A stretch of 64,000 nt of DNA from Streptomyces sp. BA2 (GTDB taxonomy: Bacteria > Actinomycetota > Actinomycetes > Streptomycetales > Streptomycetaceae). A model generated the notes under the pieces. That model had not been told where the DNA came from, did no database searches, and was given only the letters and a program-made list of their open reading frames with translations. The stretch is from positions 6,993,001 to 7,057,000 of the forward strand of contig NZ_WSRO01000002.1 in the NCBI RefSeq assembly GCF_009769735.1. The letters run 5' to 3'. Of the stretch, positions 55,011-64,000 are shown in pieces (position 1 is the first letter of the stretch; each line of letters begins with the position of its first letter). Position numbers and translations under genes: made by a program.

Positions 55011-56648
55011 CTAGTGCTTCTTGGGAAGAGCCGCCGCCCGCGCGCCGGACAGCGGCTCGGGCTCCTTGTGCGGTGCGCACGCCGCGCGCCGCACGGGGAG
55101 CCTGCCCTCAAGGAGGTACGCCTCCATGTGGCCGTTGACGCACTTGTTGGGTCCTGCCCCGATGCCGTGGGTGCCAGCGTCCCGCTCGGTCACCAGGACC
55201 GAACCCGCCAGCCTGCGGTTCAGCTCCTTGGCGCCCGCGTACGGGGTCGCCGCGTCCCGCTCGGCGGCCAGGATCAGCGTCGGGGCGAGCTCGCCCTCAT
55301 CGGTGCGGACGTCCAGGGGCTGCTGCCGGGCCTCGGGCCAGTAGGCGCACGGCAGGTTCATCCAGGCGTTGTCCCAGGTCTCGAAGGGTGCGGTGCGCGC
55401 GAGGAGTGAGTTGTCGCGGTTCCAGGTCTTGAAGTCCGTCGGCCAGGGCGCGTCATTGCACTCGACCGCGGTGTAGACCGCGTTGCCGTTCTCCTGCTCC
55501 TTGGCCGCCTTCGGCTCGGGCGCCGCCTGCTCGATCAGCGGCTTCGGATTGCCCTTCACGTACGCCGAGAGCGCCGACGCGCGCGCCGGCCAGTAGTCGT
55601 CGTAGTACCCGGCCTGGAGGTACGCCGACTGCAGCTGGCCGGGGCCGACCTTGCCGCCCGCGGGCTTGGCCGCCAGCTCGTCGCGCACCTTCTCGTAGCT
55701 GCGCCGCACCGCCTCTGGCGTCTTGCCCAGGTGGTACGTCTTGTCGTGCTTGGCCACCCACGTGCGGAAGTCGCTCCAGCGCCGCTCGAAGGCCGCGGAC
55801 TGGTCGAGGTTGTTGCGGTACCAGATCTGCGCGGGGTCGGGGTTGACCGCCGAGTCGAAGACCATGCGGCGCACGTGCGAGGGGAAGAGCGAGGCGTACA
55901 CGGCGCCGAAGTACGTGCCGTACGAGGCGCCCATGAAGGTCAGCTTCTTCTCGCCGAGCGCGGCCCGCAGCACATCCAGGTCACGGGCGTTGTTCAGGCT
56001 CGTGTAGTGCCGCACGGCCTTCCCGGAGCGCTTGACGCAGCCCTCCGCGTACGCCTTCGCCTGCGCGACGCGCTTCAGCTTGTACGCGGTGTCGGGGTGG
56101 GTCGGCGCCTGCGTCGGGGCCTTGGCGAACTCCTTGGGGTCCTGGCAGGAGATCGGCGCCGAGCGGCCGACACCGCGCGGTGCGTAGCCCACGAGGTCGT
56201 ACGCCGCCGCGATGCGCTTCCACTCGGGGATCATGCCGGCCATCGGGAAGTACATGCCGGACCCGCCGGGACCGCCGGGGTTGAACACGAGGGCGCCCTG
56301 CCGCTTGACGGCCTTGCCGCGCCGCGGTTCGGCCCGCTCCGTGGCCTTGGTGCGGCTGACGGTCAGTCTGATCTGCTTGCCGTCCGGGTGCGCGTAGTCG
56401 AGCGGCACCGAGACCGTGCCGCACTTGATCGAGGGGGGCAGGCTCTCCACCTTGGGGCAGGCGCCGAAGCGGATACCGGCCGCCTGCGCGCGCTGGGCCG
56501 CGACCTGGGTGCCGTGGGCTTCCGCTTCCGCGTAGAGGGAGGGGTAGGGGTAGGTGTCGGCCGCGGACGCGCTTCCCGTGGGGGCGGCGACGAGTGCGGT
56601 CAGGACCAAGGATCCGGCGGTTCCGTAGAGGGCGGCTGCTGCTCTCAT
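55011..56648 (-). CDS. Secreted alpha/beta hydrolase with TAP-like C-terminal domain
   Basis: 545 residues from ATG 56648. A signal peptide (LYGTAGSLVLTALVAAPTGSASA) sends it out. The alpha/beta fold has the oxyanion loop NPGGPGGSG, APRGVGRSAP and the nucleophile Ser242 in GASYGTYFG. The TAP-like C-terminal domain supplies the Asp (LAAERDAATPYAGA) and His (DAGTHGIG) of the triad. The relatives are Streptomyces tripeptidyl aminopeptidases and SlpD/SlpE-type mycelial proteinases, so peptide cleavage outside the cell is likely. Length fits. Cysteines suggest disulfides. Confidence 0.93.
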   Translation of the reverse strand: MRAAAALYGTAGSLVLTALVAAPTGSASAADTYPYPSLYAEAEAHGTQVAAQRAQAAGIRFGACPKVESLPPSIKCGTVSVPLDYAHPDGKQIRLTVSRTKATERAEPRRGKAVKRQGALVFNPGGPGGSGMYFPMAGMIPEWKRIAAAYDLVGYAPRGVGRSAPISCQDPKEFAKAPTQAPTHPDTAYKLKRVAQAKAYAEGCVKRSGKAVRHYTSLNNARDLDVLRAALGEKKLTFMGASYGTYFGAVYASLFPSHVRRMVFDSAVNPDPAQIWYRNNLDQSAAFERRWSDFRTWVAKHDKTYHLGKTPEAVRRSYEKVRDELAAKPAGGKVGPGQLQSAYLQAGYYDDYWPARASALSAYVKGNPKPLIEQAAPEPKAAKEQENGNAVYTAVECNDAPWPTDFKTWNRDNSLLARTAPFETWDNAWMNLPCAYWPEARQQPLDVRTDEGELAPTLILAAERDAATPYAGAKELNRRLAGSVLVTERDAGTHGIGAGPNKCVNGHMEAYLLEGRLPVRRAACAPHKEPEPLSGARAAALPKKH

Positions 56649-56755: not shown

Positions 56756-57517
56756 TCAATGACCCCGATGCGCCGTGTCCCGGTGCGCGAAAGCCGCCCG
56801 CAGCTCCGGATCGGCGAGGGCACGGGCGCCGCGTACGGCCACGGCGGTGAGGTCGGAGCCCCCGCGCGCGGGGAGTGCGCTCAGGAGGAGCTGGCCCGCG
56901 GGCGAGGCCCAGCGGGGGTAGGGGTGGATCTCGAAGCGGGCCACGGCCAGGCAGCTCGCGTTCAGGACGAGGGGCAGCGCGAACCAGAGCGCCACGGGCA
57001 CCTGTCCCGGCGGCTCCTGGGCGGGCATCAGGAGTGCGACGGCCCCGAGGGCGACCACCGCGGCCGCGGCGGCCCGCACCTGCCGGACCGCTCCCGCGAC
57101 CCCCGACCAGCTGCCTTCCGGCAGGGCGAGCCCCGCCGCGACGAGACGGTCGGCGAGGGCCCGCATCGCGTCGGTACCGGCCGCCGCCCGGCGCACCGGC
57201 GCTATCGGCGACTGTCCGCCGGGCCCTATCGCGCCGATCACGGAGCGCTCCATGTCGTCGCCGCCCACCGGGTCGACGACCGTCGCCCAGCCGGTGTGCG
57301 CGAGCAGCAGGCGCCGGGCGCGGGCCATCGACACCAGGGTGAGGTCGGCGACGCGCGCGGGACCGCCGGAGAGGAACGCGGCTTCGTAGAGCGTCAGTTC
57401 ATGGCGGTGCCCCGGGGCCGCGCCGTGCGGGGCGGCGCGGTACGCGGTGAGGCAGAGCCGGGCACAGGACAGGCCCGTCACGACCCAGCCCACGAGAAGG
57501 AGCGGAAGCCAGAACAT
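56756..57517 (-). CDS. TIGR04222-type membrane protein, without Cys-rich tail
   Basis: 253 residues from ATG 57517 (MFWLPLLLVGW opening; ATG 57568 would overlap the upstream gene). An N-terminal helix is followed by the TIGR04222 signature YEAAFLSGGPARVADLTLVSMARARRLLLAH, then a region ending in two hydrophobic helices (AAAAVVALGAVALLM, VALWFALPLVLNASCLAV) and the C-terminus ADPELRAAFAHRD. It matches its paralogue at 58573-59538 (LEAAFLAGGPGRVADAAIAAL, LDPELRAQLQAAH) but has no Gly/Cys tail. It is last of a minus-strand cluster. Confidence 0.78.
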   Translation of the reverse strand: MFWLPLLLVGWVVTGLSCARLCLTAYRAAPHGAAPGHRHELTLYEAAFLSGGPARVADLTLVSMARARRLLLAHTGWATVVDPVGGDDMERSVIGAIGPGGQSPIAPVRRAAAGTDAMRALADRLVAAGLALPEGSWSGVAGAVRQVRAAAAAVVALGAVALLMPAQEPPGQVPVALWFALPLVLNASCLAVARFEIHPYPRWASPAGQLLLSALPARGGSDLTAVAVRGARALADPELRAAFAHRDTAHRGH

Positions 57518-57557
57518 GCCGGTGTTGTATGCGAGGGGGCGGGGGCTGCGCCACGGG

Positions 57558-58400
57558 CTATTCAGCATGCGGACGCGGGATCGCGGGTACGTAACGTTCC
57601 GCTTTGCCGCGGGGCTTTTCCTTGCCCCTGCCCCTGTCCTTCTCCTTATCCCTCTCCTCGTCCGTGGGCTTGGGGCGGGAGGCCGGCGGGGGCAGCGAGA
57701 AGGTGGGGGAGGGGGAGACCGGGGTTGCCGGGGACGGCGAGCGGGTCGGGCCCGGTGGGGCGGGGGAGCGGGTCACCGGGACGGGGCCCGCCGACGCCGC
57801 GTCGCGCGCCAGATCGTCGAAGTCGACGAGGCCCGTGCCTTCGAGGACCGTGATGTGGTCGAGGACCGTCGTGTTCGCGTCGTCCGCGAGCGTGCGCACC
57901 AGCGAGTTGCGGGTGGTCGCGCGGACCTCGGCGACCACCGAGAAGACCTTGCCGTGGGCGGCGCGCAGGATGTTGGCGAACTTCTCGTCGTACGCGTCGC
58001 CGTGCGCGTCGCTCATCTCGTCGAGCCAGCCCCGCTGTTGGGCGGTCGGCTGATTGGGCAGTTCCAGGTTGAGCTGTGTCGCCACCTCGCGCACCCGCGC
58101 GTCCAGGAACGTATGCCCCTCGACGAGATGCTCGCCCGCCGTCTGGACCGCCTTGGTGGTGCCGCGCGCCTCGGCCTGCTGTCCGGCGGGGAGTTCCCAG
58201 AGGCCCGCCAGCCGCACCTTGGTGATGAAGTCCCGGTCGAGCGCGGAGAGCGGGCCGAACTCCGTCGACACGGTCTCCGCGTCGAGTCTGTCCACGCCGG
58301 TTCCCGACCTGTCCTCGTACGACCAGACGGGAAAGAGCAGCGCGGCCAGTGTCGCGACGAGCCCAGCGACGATGAGGCCGGTGCCGTTGATGGATCGCAT
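57558..58400 (-). CDS. DUF4142 protein, paralogue A
   Basis: 280 residues; ATG 58400 with AGGAGG 4-5 bases upstream. An N-terminal membrane anchor (LIVAGLVATLAALLFPVW) precedes a four-helix DUF4142 (ferritin-like) domain of about 150 residues with LDRDFITKVRLAGLWELPAGQQA, TFLDARVREVATQL and LANILRAAHGKVF-like helices. The C-terminal 75 residues are Pro/Ser then Lys/Glu/Arg-rich (DEERDKEKDRGRGKEKPRG) and look disordered. It is very similar to 60965-61732 in its domain, so the two come from a duplication. It is 40 bases from a TIGR04222 gene. Role unknown. Confidence 0.85.
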   Translation of the reverse strand: MRSINGTGLIVAGLVATLAALLFPVWSYEDRSGTGVDRLDAETVSTEFGPLSALDRDFITKVRLAGLWELPAGQQAEARGTTKAVQTAGEHLVEGHTFLDARVREVATQLNLELPNQPTAQQRGWLDEMSDAHGDAYDEKFANILRAAHGKVFSVVAEVRATTRNSLVRTLADDANTTVLDHITVLEGTGLVDFDDLARDAASAGPVPVTRSPAPPGPTRSPSPATPVSPSPTFSLPPPASRPKPTDEERDKEKDRGRGKEKPRGKAERYVPAIPRPHAE

Positions 58401-58572: not shown

Positions 58573-59538
58573 CTAGGAGCTGCCCCCGCCCCCTCCTCCG
58601 CAGCCGCCACCGCCTCCGCCACCGCCTCCACCGCAGGAGGACGAAGAGCCCCCGCCGCCGGAACTCCCGCAGCTGGAGCCGCCGCACGCGGAGCTGCCCC
58701 CGCTGCCTCCGCACCACGCGATGGTGCCAGTGCTGGAGCTCGCGTACGACGAGGACGTCGCCGCCGTACGTCCCGGCCGGATGCGGTGCGCGGCCTGCAA
58801 CTGTGCGCGCAGTTCGGGGTCGAGGACGCCGACCAGGCCCTCCACCGCCACGCGGTGCGCCGCGCCGGACACGTGCGCGCCCGCGGCGCGGTACTCCGCG
58901 AGAGCGGTCCGGCCCGTGGGGGTCACCCGGGTGCGGGTGGCGCGGCTGCAGAGCTGGCCGATCAGGGCGCCGAGCACCCAGGCCACGATCAACAGGATGG
59001 TCGACGTGCTCACGGGGTCCCAGGAGGGGCCGTCGCCGTCCTCGACGGCGATGACGCCGATGACGAGGAAGAACCCGGTGAAGCTAAGGGCGTTGTGCCG
59101 GATCTTCCGGCGCCGCAGGCGGTCCAGGGCCTCGGGGCGCACCATCAGGCCGCGCCGGGCCAGCGCGTCACCGATCGCCTGTACGGCGGGGCTGCGCATC
59201 ACGCCGGTGCGCAGCCAGTGCAGGGCGCCGCTCGGCGCGGCGGCGTGGGCCTGGAGCACCGCGCCCTCGACGGGGTTGCGGGCCTCGGGCGACTGGATCG
59301 CGACGATGCCGGGGAAAGCGACCACCAGGCGCCCGTCCTCGTGCAGGGCCGCGATCGCGGCGTCGGCGACTCGGCCGGGGCCGCCGGCGAGGAAGGCGGC
59401 CTCCAGGGGGTCGAACACGGCTCCGTGCTGTGCGTCGGGCTGCGGAGGCGCGGCCTGCCGTATGCGGGAGACGCCGACGAGGAGACCGGCCGTCGAGGCC
59501 GCGAGGAGAAAGGCGAAACAGACGGACAGGATCTCCAC
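58573..59538 (-). CDS. TIGR04222-type membrane protein with Gly/Ser/Cys-only C-terminal tail (candidate MNIO substrate)
   Basis: 321 residues from GTG 59538. An N-terminal helix (SVCFAFLLAASTAGLLVGV) is followed by the TIGR04222 motif LEAAFLAGGPGRVADAAIAAL, then two hydrophobic helices (LSFTGFFLVIGVIAV, ILLIVAWVLGALIGQL). The last 47 residues (275-321) are almost only Gly and Ser with five Cys (276, 285, 290, 302, 313), including runs of ten and six glycines. The gene lies 12 bases downstream of a DUF692 (MNIO) gene on the same strand. MNIO enzymes modify Cys of ribosomal peptides, so this tail is a plausible substrate (inference). The tail faces the cytoplasm or the exterior; topology is not certain. 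Confidence 0.82.
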   Translation of the reverse strand: MEILSVCFAFLLAASTAGLLVGVSRIRQAAPPQPDAQHGAVFDPLEAAFLAGGPGRVADAAIAALHEDGRLVVAFPGIVAIQSPEARNPVEGAVLQAHAAAPSGALHWLRTGVMRSPAVQAIGDALARRGLMVRPEALDRLRRRKIRHNALSFTGFFLVIGVIAVEDGDGPSWDPVSTSTILLIVAWVLGALIGQLCSRATRTRVTPTGRTALAEYRAAGAHVSGAAHRVAVEGLVGVLDPELRAQLQAAHRIRPGRTAATSSSYASSSTGTIAWCGGSGGSSACGGSSCGSSGGGGSSSSCGGGGGGGGGGCGGGGGGSS

Positions 59539-59550
59539 GGCTGCCGCCCC

Positions 59551-60855
59551 CTATCCCCGTCGCAGCGCGAACCGCGCCGCCCGCAGCCACCGTGTGACCG
59601 GCCGCGCGTCCAGCGGCGCGGGCCCGGACCGTTCGAGCCACCACCGGGTCAGCTCGCCGCGCGCCTCCGCGTCCTCGGGCCGCCCGGCGAGCAGCAGCCG
59701 CTCGGCGAAGTCCAGCGCGTCACGCCGGTATCCGCCGGACATCGGCCGCGACTGCGCGTACGCGATGAACTCCGGGCGATAGCTGTCGCCGAGGATCTCC
59801 GGCAGCTCGGGCGCCACCTTCGCCACGACGTCCGCCCGCTTGCCGGTCAACGCCCTGCTCTGCACGGTCAGCCGGGCCCGGTCGAACCCTTCGGGCGCGG
59901 GCGTCCCGGCCACCAGGGCGGAGAGGAGCGCGGTCTGCGAGAGGGCGAGGCGCTGACGGGTGGCGTCCGGCACGGCGGCGGGGGCCGCGGCGGCCCGTGC
60001 GGTCCCGGTGGCGCACTCACCGGAGGCGGGCGCCTTCGTCCGCACGGTCTCCCGTATCGCGTCCAGCTCGCGCTCGAGCTCCTGGGGCGCCGGGAAGTTC
60101 TCATCCCGTTCCAGCAGGACGCCCGGCGGGCTCACCCGCGCGGCCAGGTCCGAAAGGATCGCGAGGACCGGCTCCGGGACCGGGTGGGCGTGGCTGTCGT
60201 GCCAGACGCCGTCCCGCTCGAAGCCGCCCGCGACATGGACGTACGCGATGGCCTCGACCGGCAGCTCGTCCAGGGCCTTCGACGGGTCCTCGCCGCGGTT
60301 GACGTGGTTCGTGTGGAGGTTGGCGACATCGATGAGGAGGCGTACGCCCGTGCGCTCGACGAGCTCGTAGAGGAACTGCCCCTCCGTCATCTCCTCGCCG
60401 GGCCAGGAGATCAGCGCCGCGATGTTCTCCACGGCGAGCGGCACCGGCAGCGCGTCCTGCGCGATGCGCACGTTCTCGCACAGCACGTCGAGGGCGTCGC
60501 GGGTGCGCGGCACCGGAAGCAGGTGGCCCGCCTCCAGCGGCTGCGAAGCCGTCAGCGGGCCCCCGGCGCGTACGAACGCGATGTGCTCGGTGACCAGCGG
60601 CGAGCCGAGTGCCTGCGCGCGCTCGGCGAGCGCGGCGATGCGCGTCTCGTCGGGGCGGTCGGCTCCGCCGAGGCCGAGCGAGACGCCGTGCGGCACCACC
60701 GTGACGCCCCGCTCGCGCAGCCGGAGGAGGGAGTCGGGGATGTGCCCGGGGCACAGGTTCTCCGCGACAGCCTCGACCCAGTCGATGCCGGGCATCCGTT
60801 CCACGGCGTTCGCGATCTCCGGACGCCACCCGATTCCGGTCCCCAGGTGCTTCAT
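59551..60855 (-). CDS. DUF692 (MNIO) iron-dependent oxidase with fused C-terminal partner-like domain
   Basis: 434 residues from ATG 60855. Residues 1-285 form the DUF692 TIM barrel with the expected metal ligands: GTGIGWRPE (5-13), His56 in [11 protein letters not shown], His91 in TEHIAF, Glu143 in LAVENIAAL, Asp176 and Asn179/His181 in [13 protein letters not shown], His207 in YVHVAGG, Asp220/His222 in WHDSHAHP, Glu249 in LLERDENFP. This family (MbnB, TglH, ChrH) uses two or three irons to oxidise Cys-rich peptides. Residues about 300-434 form a separate helical domain ([50 protein letters not shown]) resembling DUF2063/MbnC-type partner proteins. It is 12 bases upstream of the Gly/Cys-tail membrane protein. 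Confidence 0.88.
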
Positions 60856-60964: not shown

Positions 60965-61732
60965 CTACATTTGAGGTTCCGGCCGGTCCGTGTTGACCTC
61001 CCCCGGAGGTGCGGGCGAGGGCCGCGACGTCGTGGACACATCACCGGTCGGGCCGGCCGGCGGGGGCTCCGGGGGAGCGACGCCTGAGGGCGGCGGAGGC
61101 CCGGTGGGGCTGGCCGTGGCGGTGGCGGCGCCGCCGTTCGCGATGTCGTCGAAGTCGACGAGGCCGGTGGCCTCCAGCATCGTGATGTGGTCGAGGACCG
61201 TCTGGTTGGAGTCGCTGGCCAGCTGCCGTATCAGCGTGTTGCGGGTGCTGTCCCGCACCTGTGCGATCACGCTGAACACCTTGCCGTGCGCGACCCGCAG
61301 CAGATTCGCGAACTTCCGCTGGTACTCCATGCCTTCGGCCTCGGTCAACTCCTGGAGCCAGCCCTGCTGCTGGGCGGTGGGCTGGTTCGGCAGCTCCACG
61401 CCGAGCTGCGCCGCGACCGCGCGGGCCCGCTTGTCGAGGTCCGTGTGGCCGACGATCAGATGGTCACCCGCCTCCTTGATCGCCTCGGTCGGTGCGCGCT
61501 CGACGGCTTGCTGGCCCGCGGGCAGCTCCCACAGCCCGGCGAGGCGCACCTTCACGAGCAGATCGCGGTCGGCTGCCGAGAGCGGACCCCACTGGGTGGC
61601 CACCGACCCGGCGGCCAGATTGGCGGGCCCCGTGCCCGAACGGTCGGCGTAGGACCACATGGGGAACGCGAGCGCGCCCAGTGTGGCCACGAGTGCCGCG
61701 ATGATCAGAGCCGTGCCGTTGATGCGCCGCAA
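60965..61732 (-). CDS. DUF4142 protein, paralogue B
   Basis: 255 residues from TTG 61732, chosen for AGGGAGG 9 bases upstream and the opening RRINGTALIIAAL shared with paralogue A (RSINGTGLIVAGL). A membrane anchor (IIAALVATLGALAFPMWSY) and a DUF4142 helical domain (VKVRLAGLWELPAGQQAVERA, TDLDKRARAVAAQLGVELPNQ, LDHITMLEATGLVDFDD) are followed by a Pro/Gly/Thr-rich disordered tail. It is first of the minus-strand cluster that contains DUF692 and two TIGR04222 genes. Ferritin-like folds often bind metal, but obvious Glu/His carboxylate ligand pairs are not seen, so a structural or redox role remains open. Confidence 0.85.
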   Translation of the reverse strand: MRRINGTALIIAALVATLGALAFPMWSYADRSGTGPANLAAGSVATQWGPLSAADRDLLVKVRLAGLWELPAGQQAVERAPTEAIKEAGDHLIVGHTDLDKRARAVAAQLGVELPNQPTAQQQGWLQELTEAEGMEYQRKFANLLRVAHGKVFSVIAQVRDSTRNTLIRQLASDSNQTVLDHITMLEATGLVDFDDIANGGAATATASPTGPPPPSGVAPPEPPPAGPTGDVSTTSRPSPAPPGEVNTDRPEPQM

Positions 61733-63082: not shown

Positions 63083-64000
63083 TTAGGGCAGCCCCGGTGA
63101 GGCGCTGGCGCTCAGGGAGGAGTTGAGCTGAGGCACCAGCGACGGGTCCGTCGCCGCCGCGCGCAGTCGTGCCGTGATGGCGACGCCCGCCCTGCGGTAG
63201 ATGGCCGGCTCGTCGTGCAGCACCGAGTGCGCGTTCGCCGTCTCCATCAGCGCGATGAGTTCGAAGGCGACCTGGGGTACGTCGGTATCCGGGTGCAGTT
63301 CGCCGGTGTCGCGGGCCTCGGCGACGCAGCGCTCCACCTGGCCGGTCCAGTCACGGTCGGCGCGGACCAGCGCGTCGTGCACCGCGCCCTCGCGGGCGTC
63401 GAACTCGGCGATCACCCCGTAGAAGAAGCAGCCGCCGGGAAAGACGCGCTGTTCCGAGTAGTCGAGCCAGCGCGCGCACAGCTGCCAGACGCGGCCGAGG
63501 CCGGGCGGGGACTGCGTGGCCGGTTCCACCACCGCGTCGAGGAAGATGCGGCCGGCCGCGCGGATGGTCGCGAGCTGCAGCTCCTCCTTGGAGCCGAAGA
63601 GCGCGAAGACCCCGCTCTTGCTGAGCTTCAGCTCGGTGGCGATCCGCCCGACGGAAAGCGCGTCCAGACCCTCGACCGAGGCGATGTCAACCGTGCGGCG
63701 CAGGACGAGACGCCGGGTCTGGTTACCACGCTCGACGCGCCCGTCGAGCTTGGTTCCGCTGGGGCTGGAGCCCGAGCCGGAGCCGGAGCTGGAGCCCCCG
63801 CCTGTACCTGAGCCGGAGCCTGAGCCCGAGCGAGAGCCTGAAACCGAGCCCGAGCGAGAGCCGGAGCCTGTACCTGAGCGAGAGTCGGAGCCCGAACCCG
63901 AGTGCGAGCCCGAGTCAGAGCCCGAGCCGGAGCGGGAGTCAGAGCCGGAGCCTGTACCTGAGCGAGAGCCGGAGCCTGAGCCCGAACCCGAACCCGAGCC
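63083..64000 (-). CDS. TetR-family regulator with long Ser-Gly N-terminal extension (start outside window)
   Basis: The minus-strand frame is open from the right edge to the stop at 63083, 305 residues visible. No ATG, GTG or TTG occurs in frame between 63533 and 64000, so the start lies outside. The first about 85 residues are alternating Ser-Gly with a few Asp, Arg, His and Thr. A TetR helix-turn-helix follows ([34 protein letters not shown], with [17 protein letters not shown] before it), then the C-terminal ligand domain ([17 protein letters not shown]). Such an extension is not typical of TetR proteins. It probably controls the operon downstream. Confidence 0.85.
63766..64000. repeat. 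GAGCC(G/T/C) hexanucleotide repeat array at the right edge
   Basis: Bases 63766-64000 consist of GAGCCG, GAGCCT, GAGCCC, GAGTC and CCGGAG variants. GCCTGTACCTGAG recurs at 63800, 63868 and 63951. On the minus strand it encodes the Ser-Gly run of the TetR protein and continues beyond the window. Confidence 0.75.

Follow-up and report, generated by a model that had tools for sequence, protein, structure and literature searches.

Gene clusters that pair an MNIO enzyme (DUF692) with a TIGR04222 protein have been described by Antoine et al. (2025), whose sections on substrates without signal peptides report Ser/Gly-rich tails containing Cys on the TIGR04222 proteins and propose subsets of these proteins as MNIO substrates (PMC12452194). 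In the same sections, TIGR04222 proteins make up 40% of the more than 1,000 Cys proteins without a signal peptide whose genes precede an MNIO gene, precursors that lack a signal peptide are associated with PME-type 2 partners, and bufferin precursors have Sec signal peptides (PMC12452194). The relevant part of a preprint by Chen et al. (2025) provides experimental evidence for modification of a 34 kDa protein at its C-terminus by the MNIO MelH together with MelHc, the partner required there corresponding to the C-terminal domain of ChrH (PMC12636315). Here we analyse a window of 64,000 nt (the whole stretch of DNA under study) from the 10.04 Mb genome of Streptomyces sp. BA2, in which an MNIO gene lies directly upstream of a gene for a TIGR04222 membrane protein with a C-terminal Gly/Ser/Cys tail (Table 1). 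Judged from sequence, the two are probably an enzyme and its protein substrate, the Cys of the tail being oxidised and the tail retained on the cytosolic side in a metal or thiol role. An earlier note on this DNA had proposed the tail as the substrate of a new modification system; that interpretation is plausible and now better supported, and its core was published in 2025. Neither the pairing nor the use of a large protein as substrate is new, because both are in print: the pairing and the substrate idea appear in the sections of Antoine et al. cited above (PMC12452194), and MNIO action on a large protein, for which the note had also claimed novelty, has been shown in another subfamily with the 34 kDa protein of the preprint (PMC12636315). 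What appears to be new, as far as the literature search shows, is the genome-level dependence of the Cys tail on the MNIO, the occurrence of such tails on a number of different scaffolds, and the arguments for placing the tail in the cytosol.

The locus resembles the clusters of Antoine et al. in the adjacency of the two families, the Ser/Gly/Cys C-terminus and the proposal that the tail is modified, and a peptidyl-tRNA hydrolase - MNIO - TIGR04222 arrangement is listed in their Table 2 (PMC12452194). It differs in that the tail is periplasmic in their account, whereas here the cytosol is favoured and tails are also found on other scaffolds; in addition, a partner-like domain is present at most of the loci sampled here, while the section concerned gives at least 10% of TIGR04222 clusters as encoding PME-type 2 (PMC12452194). 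With the ChrH/MelH-type enzymes, as the preprint describes them, it shares a large-protein C-terminus as target, an enzyme C-terminal domain that is either fused or separate, and variable N-terminal parts (PMC12636315). A CPACGMG-type motif and proven chemistry characterise that system, whereas here the candidate target is a Gly/Ser/Cys tail, and the enzyme belongs to another MNIO subgroup, scoring 42 bits against the ChrH model where the cut-off is 600. Among the NCBIfam models the best for the enzyme is BufB of the bufferin system (BufA/BufB/BufC), which also has several Cys per substrate, but the score of 179 bits does not reach the BufB (NF050167) cut-off of 310. No Sec signal peptide was seen on reading the sequence, and there is no match at the locus to DUF2063 (PF09836), the best in its own genome having an E-value of 0.53 and lying elsewhere.

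The association between tail and enzyme was followed in a sample of 246 genomes from the class; 91 of these have a TIGR04222 match at E 0.001 and 58 have an MNIO, and the window's genus is represented by group f1/g1, taken as Streptomyces. TIGR04222 and MNIO open reading frames (ORFs) were located in 120 genome regions with profiles built from the window genes, and a tail counted as Cys-bearing if a 25-residue stretch among the last 60 residues contained no fewer than 3 Cys and 15 Gly/Ser. Among 73 TIGR04222 genomes, 34 have both a Cys tail and an MNIO, one a Cys tail only, 15 an MNIO only and 23 neither (Fisher p 5e-8, kinship ignored), so that the co-occurrence of Cys/Gly tails with MNIO genes, which the earlier note had put forward as a check, came out positive. 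In the single Cys-tailed genome scored without MNIO the contig ends inside an MNIO start, and moving this genome changes p to 3e-9, kinship again ignored. Within family f15 alone the same four cells read 6/0/1/9, the one MNIO-only genome (G211) having a BufB-like MNIO. The Cys-tailed TIGR04222 proteins number 37 and span 18 genera of the sample; 32 are encoded in the same region as an MNIO, four have an MNIO elsewhere and one lies at a contig edge. Twelve Gly/Ser-rich tails were found in MNIO-free genomes: the last 40 residues are Cys-free in ten of them, and contain two Cys in one and four in another, which looks misread.

Several scoring decisions define these counts. The other 18 of the 91 TIGR04222 genomes have weak matches only and stand outside the table; the regions of eight of these 18 were examined. 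The scan of these eight revealed no Cys tail; four contain proteins of 606-733 residues with Gly/Ser-rich ends devoid of Cys, which we take to resemble DUF2207 proteins. G006 (51.8 bits) was omitted and G047 (49.9 bits) kept; inclusion of G006 would make the last cell 24 rather than 23. G034 was scored as having no Cys tail, three tail Cys preceding a run-on of 39 residues, with only a partial MNIO match; in the tree described below it is labelled Cys-tailed. In G067 a short MNIO start is cut by the contig end. The tail of G162 was excluded by the tail rule, the stretch looking misread, and flagged stretches in L064, L147 (1747-1875) and L164 were discarded, being short or antisense readings.

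On a tree of 91 TIGR04222 rows the tail label changes nine times, eight of these changes being forced by well-supported branches, compared with 30 changes for shuffled labels. One of the nine depends on a doubtful row from G111 (L113, 5935-7077), which is labelled tail-less even though a Cys tail follows directly in another frame. At the same place (L113, 5028-7268) several TIGR04222 pieces seem to stand in tandem before the MNIO, one with its domain and Cys tail split between frames. The tailed protein of the window falls in a clade of its genus with eight rows, all Cys-tailed, and its tail-less paralogue in a separate clade of the genus with 15 rows, none Cys-tailed. The co-occurrence, the repeated change of tail label on the tree and the presence of similar tails on several MNIO-adjacent scaffolds were all computed directly.

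The tailed protein scores 120.4 bits against TIGR04222 (cut-off 43) and the tail-less paralogue 131 bits. Its tail comprises 27 Gly, 13 Ser, five Cys (residues 276, 285, 290, 302 and 313) and one Ala; its description in the earlier note as 47 residues of pure Gly/Ser/Cys was thus nearly right, there being 46 residues of which one is Ala. The best 120 of 981 relatives, the query protein included, were compared: 116 of these listed relatives have 4-9 Cys within the last 70 residues, which argues that the tail is more than chance, and the other four have one Cys each, one of them being named partial and one only 177 residues long. The first tail Cys is directly preceded by W275, a residue that does not vary across 57 relatives chosen for comparison. 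The tail itself is of low complexity and varies in length among relatives. Named protein relatives among the matches listed are nearly all from Streptomyces.

Tails outside TIGR04222 were sought by scanning all frames of the examined regions. Mini-proteins with a single transmembrane (TM) segment and a similar tail, 83-119 residues long from the chosen Met, were found beside the MNIO in five genomes (G066, G095, G105, G177 and G237), and two further tailed mini-proteins in G577 and G578; those at L110 (to 6142), L126 (to 4829), L112 (to 4809), L139 (to 6374), L102 (to 4034), L207 and L215 lack a TIGR04222 domain. The mini-proteins have an Arg-rich flank, their Gly/Cys tails also contain His, and they may overlap the adjamnio-I family of Antoine et al. 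(PMC12452194). In G245 and G576 a larger, soluble-looking protein of ~450 residues with no Pfam match carries a Gly/Cys tail beside the MNIO (L140, 5851-7206; L205, 17-1444), and the Cys-tailed TIGR04222 relatives of G059, G067 and G080 seem to be TM-less, any hydrophobic peaks falling on helices of the soluble part. Four scaffold types are therefore found beside the MNIO (three-TM TIGR04222, TM-less TIGR04222, single-TM mini-protein and another soluble protein), and with all of them counted such a tail is present in 38 of the 58 MNIO genomes; the window's genus contributes 8 of its 22 and the other genomes 30 of their 36. In family f16 another five genomes with an MNIO were examined, and each has a tail within 1.5 kb. 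By these comparisons the tail is the part common to the different scaffolds, and the membrane part can probably be dispensed with, given that seemingly TM-less proteins encoded beside the MNIO have similar tails. In four genomes without a local Cys-tailed gene, short and apparently TM-less TIGR04222 relatives (L068, L070, L073 and L075) end in a short Gly-rich stretch with one Cys and constitute a possible alternative substrate.

Hydropathy places hydrophobic segments in the tailed protein at residues ~3-21, 150-168 and 179-197, and three such segments are seen in 113 of the 120 listed relatives; a structure model has a mean pLDDT of 81.5, with the tail at low confidence. Lys plus Arg residues in the listed relatives average 4.1 over the 15 positions preceding TM2 and 3.2 over the 15 that follow TM3, against 0.3 in the TM2-TM3 loop, the flanks being richer than the loop in 115 of 119 and poorer in four. 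A diverse set of Cys-tailed proteins agrees more weakly than the close relatives, with richer flanks in 28 of 36; compared by alignment, the mean net charge of the flanks exceeds that of the loop in 33 of 38, and that of both flanks in 27 of 38. Five of the mini-proteins beside the MNIO have a net charge between +5 and +7 over the 25 residues that follow the TM segment, and 0 (or no residue) before it. When the sequences were read for features of a Sec signal peptide, the tailed protein showed positive charge after TM1 and none before it, and neither the TM-less nor the single-TM carriers showed a signal-peptide-like start. Because of these charge patterns and the carriers without a signal-like start, the prediction made here favours a cytosolic rather than a periplasmic tail, against the published prediction.

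The MNIO matches PF05114 with 262 bits (cut-off 25) over a catalytic domain of approximately residues 6-270, and its sequence shows no signal peptide. The earlier note had credited it with all expected metal ligands, and the ligand-type residues are indeed present: H56, E90, H91, E127, E143, D176, N179, H181, H207, D220, H222 and E249 are invariant in 37 aligned close relatives of 80-94% identity, the assignment of a metal-binding role to particular ones among them being our assumption. A helical domain is fused at the C-terminus (residues ~297-434), and PF26136, precomputed on all 120 enzyme relatives among the matches listed, would from the names be this domain. Scoring of 61 MNIO loci with a home-made profile finds the domain fused to the enzyme in 30 and encoded by a separate adjacent gene in 16, so that at least 46 have it; 15 lack it by that rule, though six of these have matching ORFs in longer overlapping frames. 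It has no significant sequence match in PDB or Pfam, and it weakly resembles DUF2063 in a profile comparison (87 collinear columns, score 28.3, E 0.0019, probability 14%), where 60 column shuffles scored at most 23.7 and two controls 21.4 and 18.3. PF09836 was over its cut-off in three of 30 chosen genomes (G211, G230 and G311), each time beside a BufB-like MNIO. At L091, L130 and L184, from three genomes, a BufB-like MNIO and a DUF2063-type gene are accompanied by an upstream ORF with spaced Cys (HVCMGLN, HVCHG). The name SCO6045 labels a C-terminal domain in enzyme relatives, and by that name SCO6045 of S. coelicolor may be the orthologue of this MNIO. In the part of the study that concerns it, SCO6045 was raised 3-fold with H2O2 alongside cysteine-synthesis genes and was not raised in an HbpS-SenS-SenR mutant (PMC4991794).

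In the reading favoured here, the MNIO with its fused partner-like domain would oxidise Cys of the Gly/Ser/Cys tail, and the tail would remain part of the protein after modification. The three TM helices would place it on the cytosolic membrane face, within the enzyme's reach, where the modified tail would most likely bind copper or another soft metal as a bufferin-like brush tethered to the membrane, or else serve as a thiol redox buffer; modification, membrane side and function are thus what we infer. An extended proposal, that a portable tail, shared by four or more types of scaffold, undergoes modification in place by a dedicated MNIO and remains cytosolic or at the inner face as a brush for intracellular metal or redox buffering, instead of being released as a peptide, is possible and is offered tentatively. 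A number of observations weigh against the favoured reading. In 14 of the 22 MNIO genomes of the window's genus, the enzyme and its extra domain are present with no Cys-tailed gene in the region; one of these, G187, where the contig stops 155 bases past the enzyme, gives no information, and once it is set aside 13 of 21 informative genomes lack a Cys-tailed gene nearby; a profile search (at most 119 candidates per genome, which may miss mini-proteins) found none elsewhere in those genomes. The MNIO of G160 adjoins a Cys-free tail, and that of G085 has no tail gene within ~5 kb, a Cys-tailed protein being encoded elsewhere in the genome. Enzymes without a nearby tail either have other substrates or do not have the tail as their main one. 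With respect to the membrane side, the flanks are poorer in Lys plus Arg than the loop in 8 of the 36 sampled Cys-tailed proteins, and an additional hydrophobic peak precedes the tail in 11 of 40, near residues 221-243, a position that corresponds to short helices after TM3 in the structure model of the window protein; the topology passage of Antoine et al. predicts a periplasmic tail (PMC12452194).

Those MNIO genes retained without a nearby Cys-tailed gene, and the Cys-free tail of G160, would also suit a model in which the tail acts unmodified as a thiol or metal ligand, the substrate of the MNIO is a different peptide, and the two are neighbours through a shared part in metal or redox homeostasis. 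We regard this as unlikely, as Cys in such tails were seen, among the genomes sampled, only together with an MNIO (once one cut by a contig end), even where the genes are unlinked, and similar tails adjoin the MNIO on four scaffold types. It seems quite improbable that the TIGR04222 part is a membrane-held leader from which the tail is cleaved and exported as a peptide, or that the tail is on the outer side of the membrane, where Antoine et al. place it: the charge bias would put the tail inside and the TM-less and single-TM carriers, as read from sequence, lack a signal-peptide-like start, even though bufferin precursors have Sec signal peptides in the sections cited (PMC12452194) and a TAP-like gene flanks the locus, with ORFs of similar appearance, judged by eye, in the corresponding position at several loci of the genus. 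The low complexity and variable length of the tail would fit meaningless drift in an expanding GGC/AGC repeat, from which TGC is one base away, but this is hardly credible in view of the 4-9 Cys in 116 of the 120 listed relatives and of the ten Cys-free ends among the 12 Gly/Ser-rich tails of MNIO-free genomes.

The genes at the locus are arranged on the minus strand in the transcription order DUF4142, MNIO, tailed TIGR04222, second DUF4142 and tail-less TIGR04222 (Table 1). The coordinates, the minus-strand ORFs, the five Cys and the 12-base gap given by the earlier note are all confirmed, the gap separating the MNIO stop (59551-59553) from the GTG start (59536-59538) of the tailed gene; the note was silent on the tail-less second TIGR04222 gene, the two DUF4142 genes and the ~140-residue C-terminal domain of the enzyme. 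As called, the second DUF4142 ORF shares 11 bases with the beginning of the ORF for the tail-less TIGR04222 protein. With one DUF4142 gene per TIGR04222 unit, the arrangement looks like a duplicated module. At the edge of the window, an ORF at 63083-64000 starts with a Gly/Ser/Arg/Asp repeat stretch.

Table 1. Features of the MNIO-TIGR04222 locus, in window coordinates
Feature	Position	Strand	Match or remark
DUF4142 protein, upstream of MNIO	60965-61732	-	PF13628 3e-18
MNIO (DUF692/PF05114), 434 aa	59551-60855	-	PF05114 E 7e-78
TIGR04222 membrane protein with Gly/Ser/Cys tail, 321 aa	58573-59538	-	TIGR04222 8.6e-35
Gly/Ser/Cys tail, residues 276-321, W275 just before	58576-58713	-	five Cys
Second DUF4142 protein	57558-58400	-	PF13628 2e-19
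Second TIGR04222 protein, without tail	56756-57568	-	TIGR04222 5e-38
TAP-like protein gene	55011-56648 (listed as 56648-55011)		PF08386

A profile search of the genome returned one MNIO and two TIGR04222 matches, all in this locus, which therefore suits a clean test, with one MNIO, one Cys-tailed TIGR04222 protein and an adjacent tail-less paralogue as control. If the favoured reading is true, MNIO chemistry would extend beyond exported peptides, Actinobacteria would also equip resident proteins at the inner face of the membrane with modified cysteines, and the metal or redox role served there would differ from that of the bufferins.
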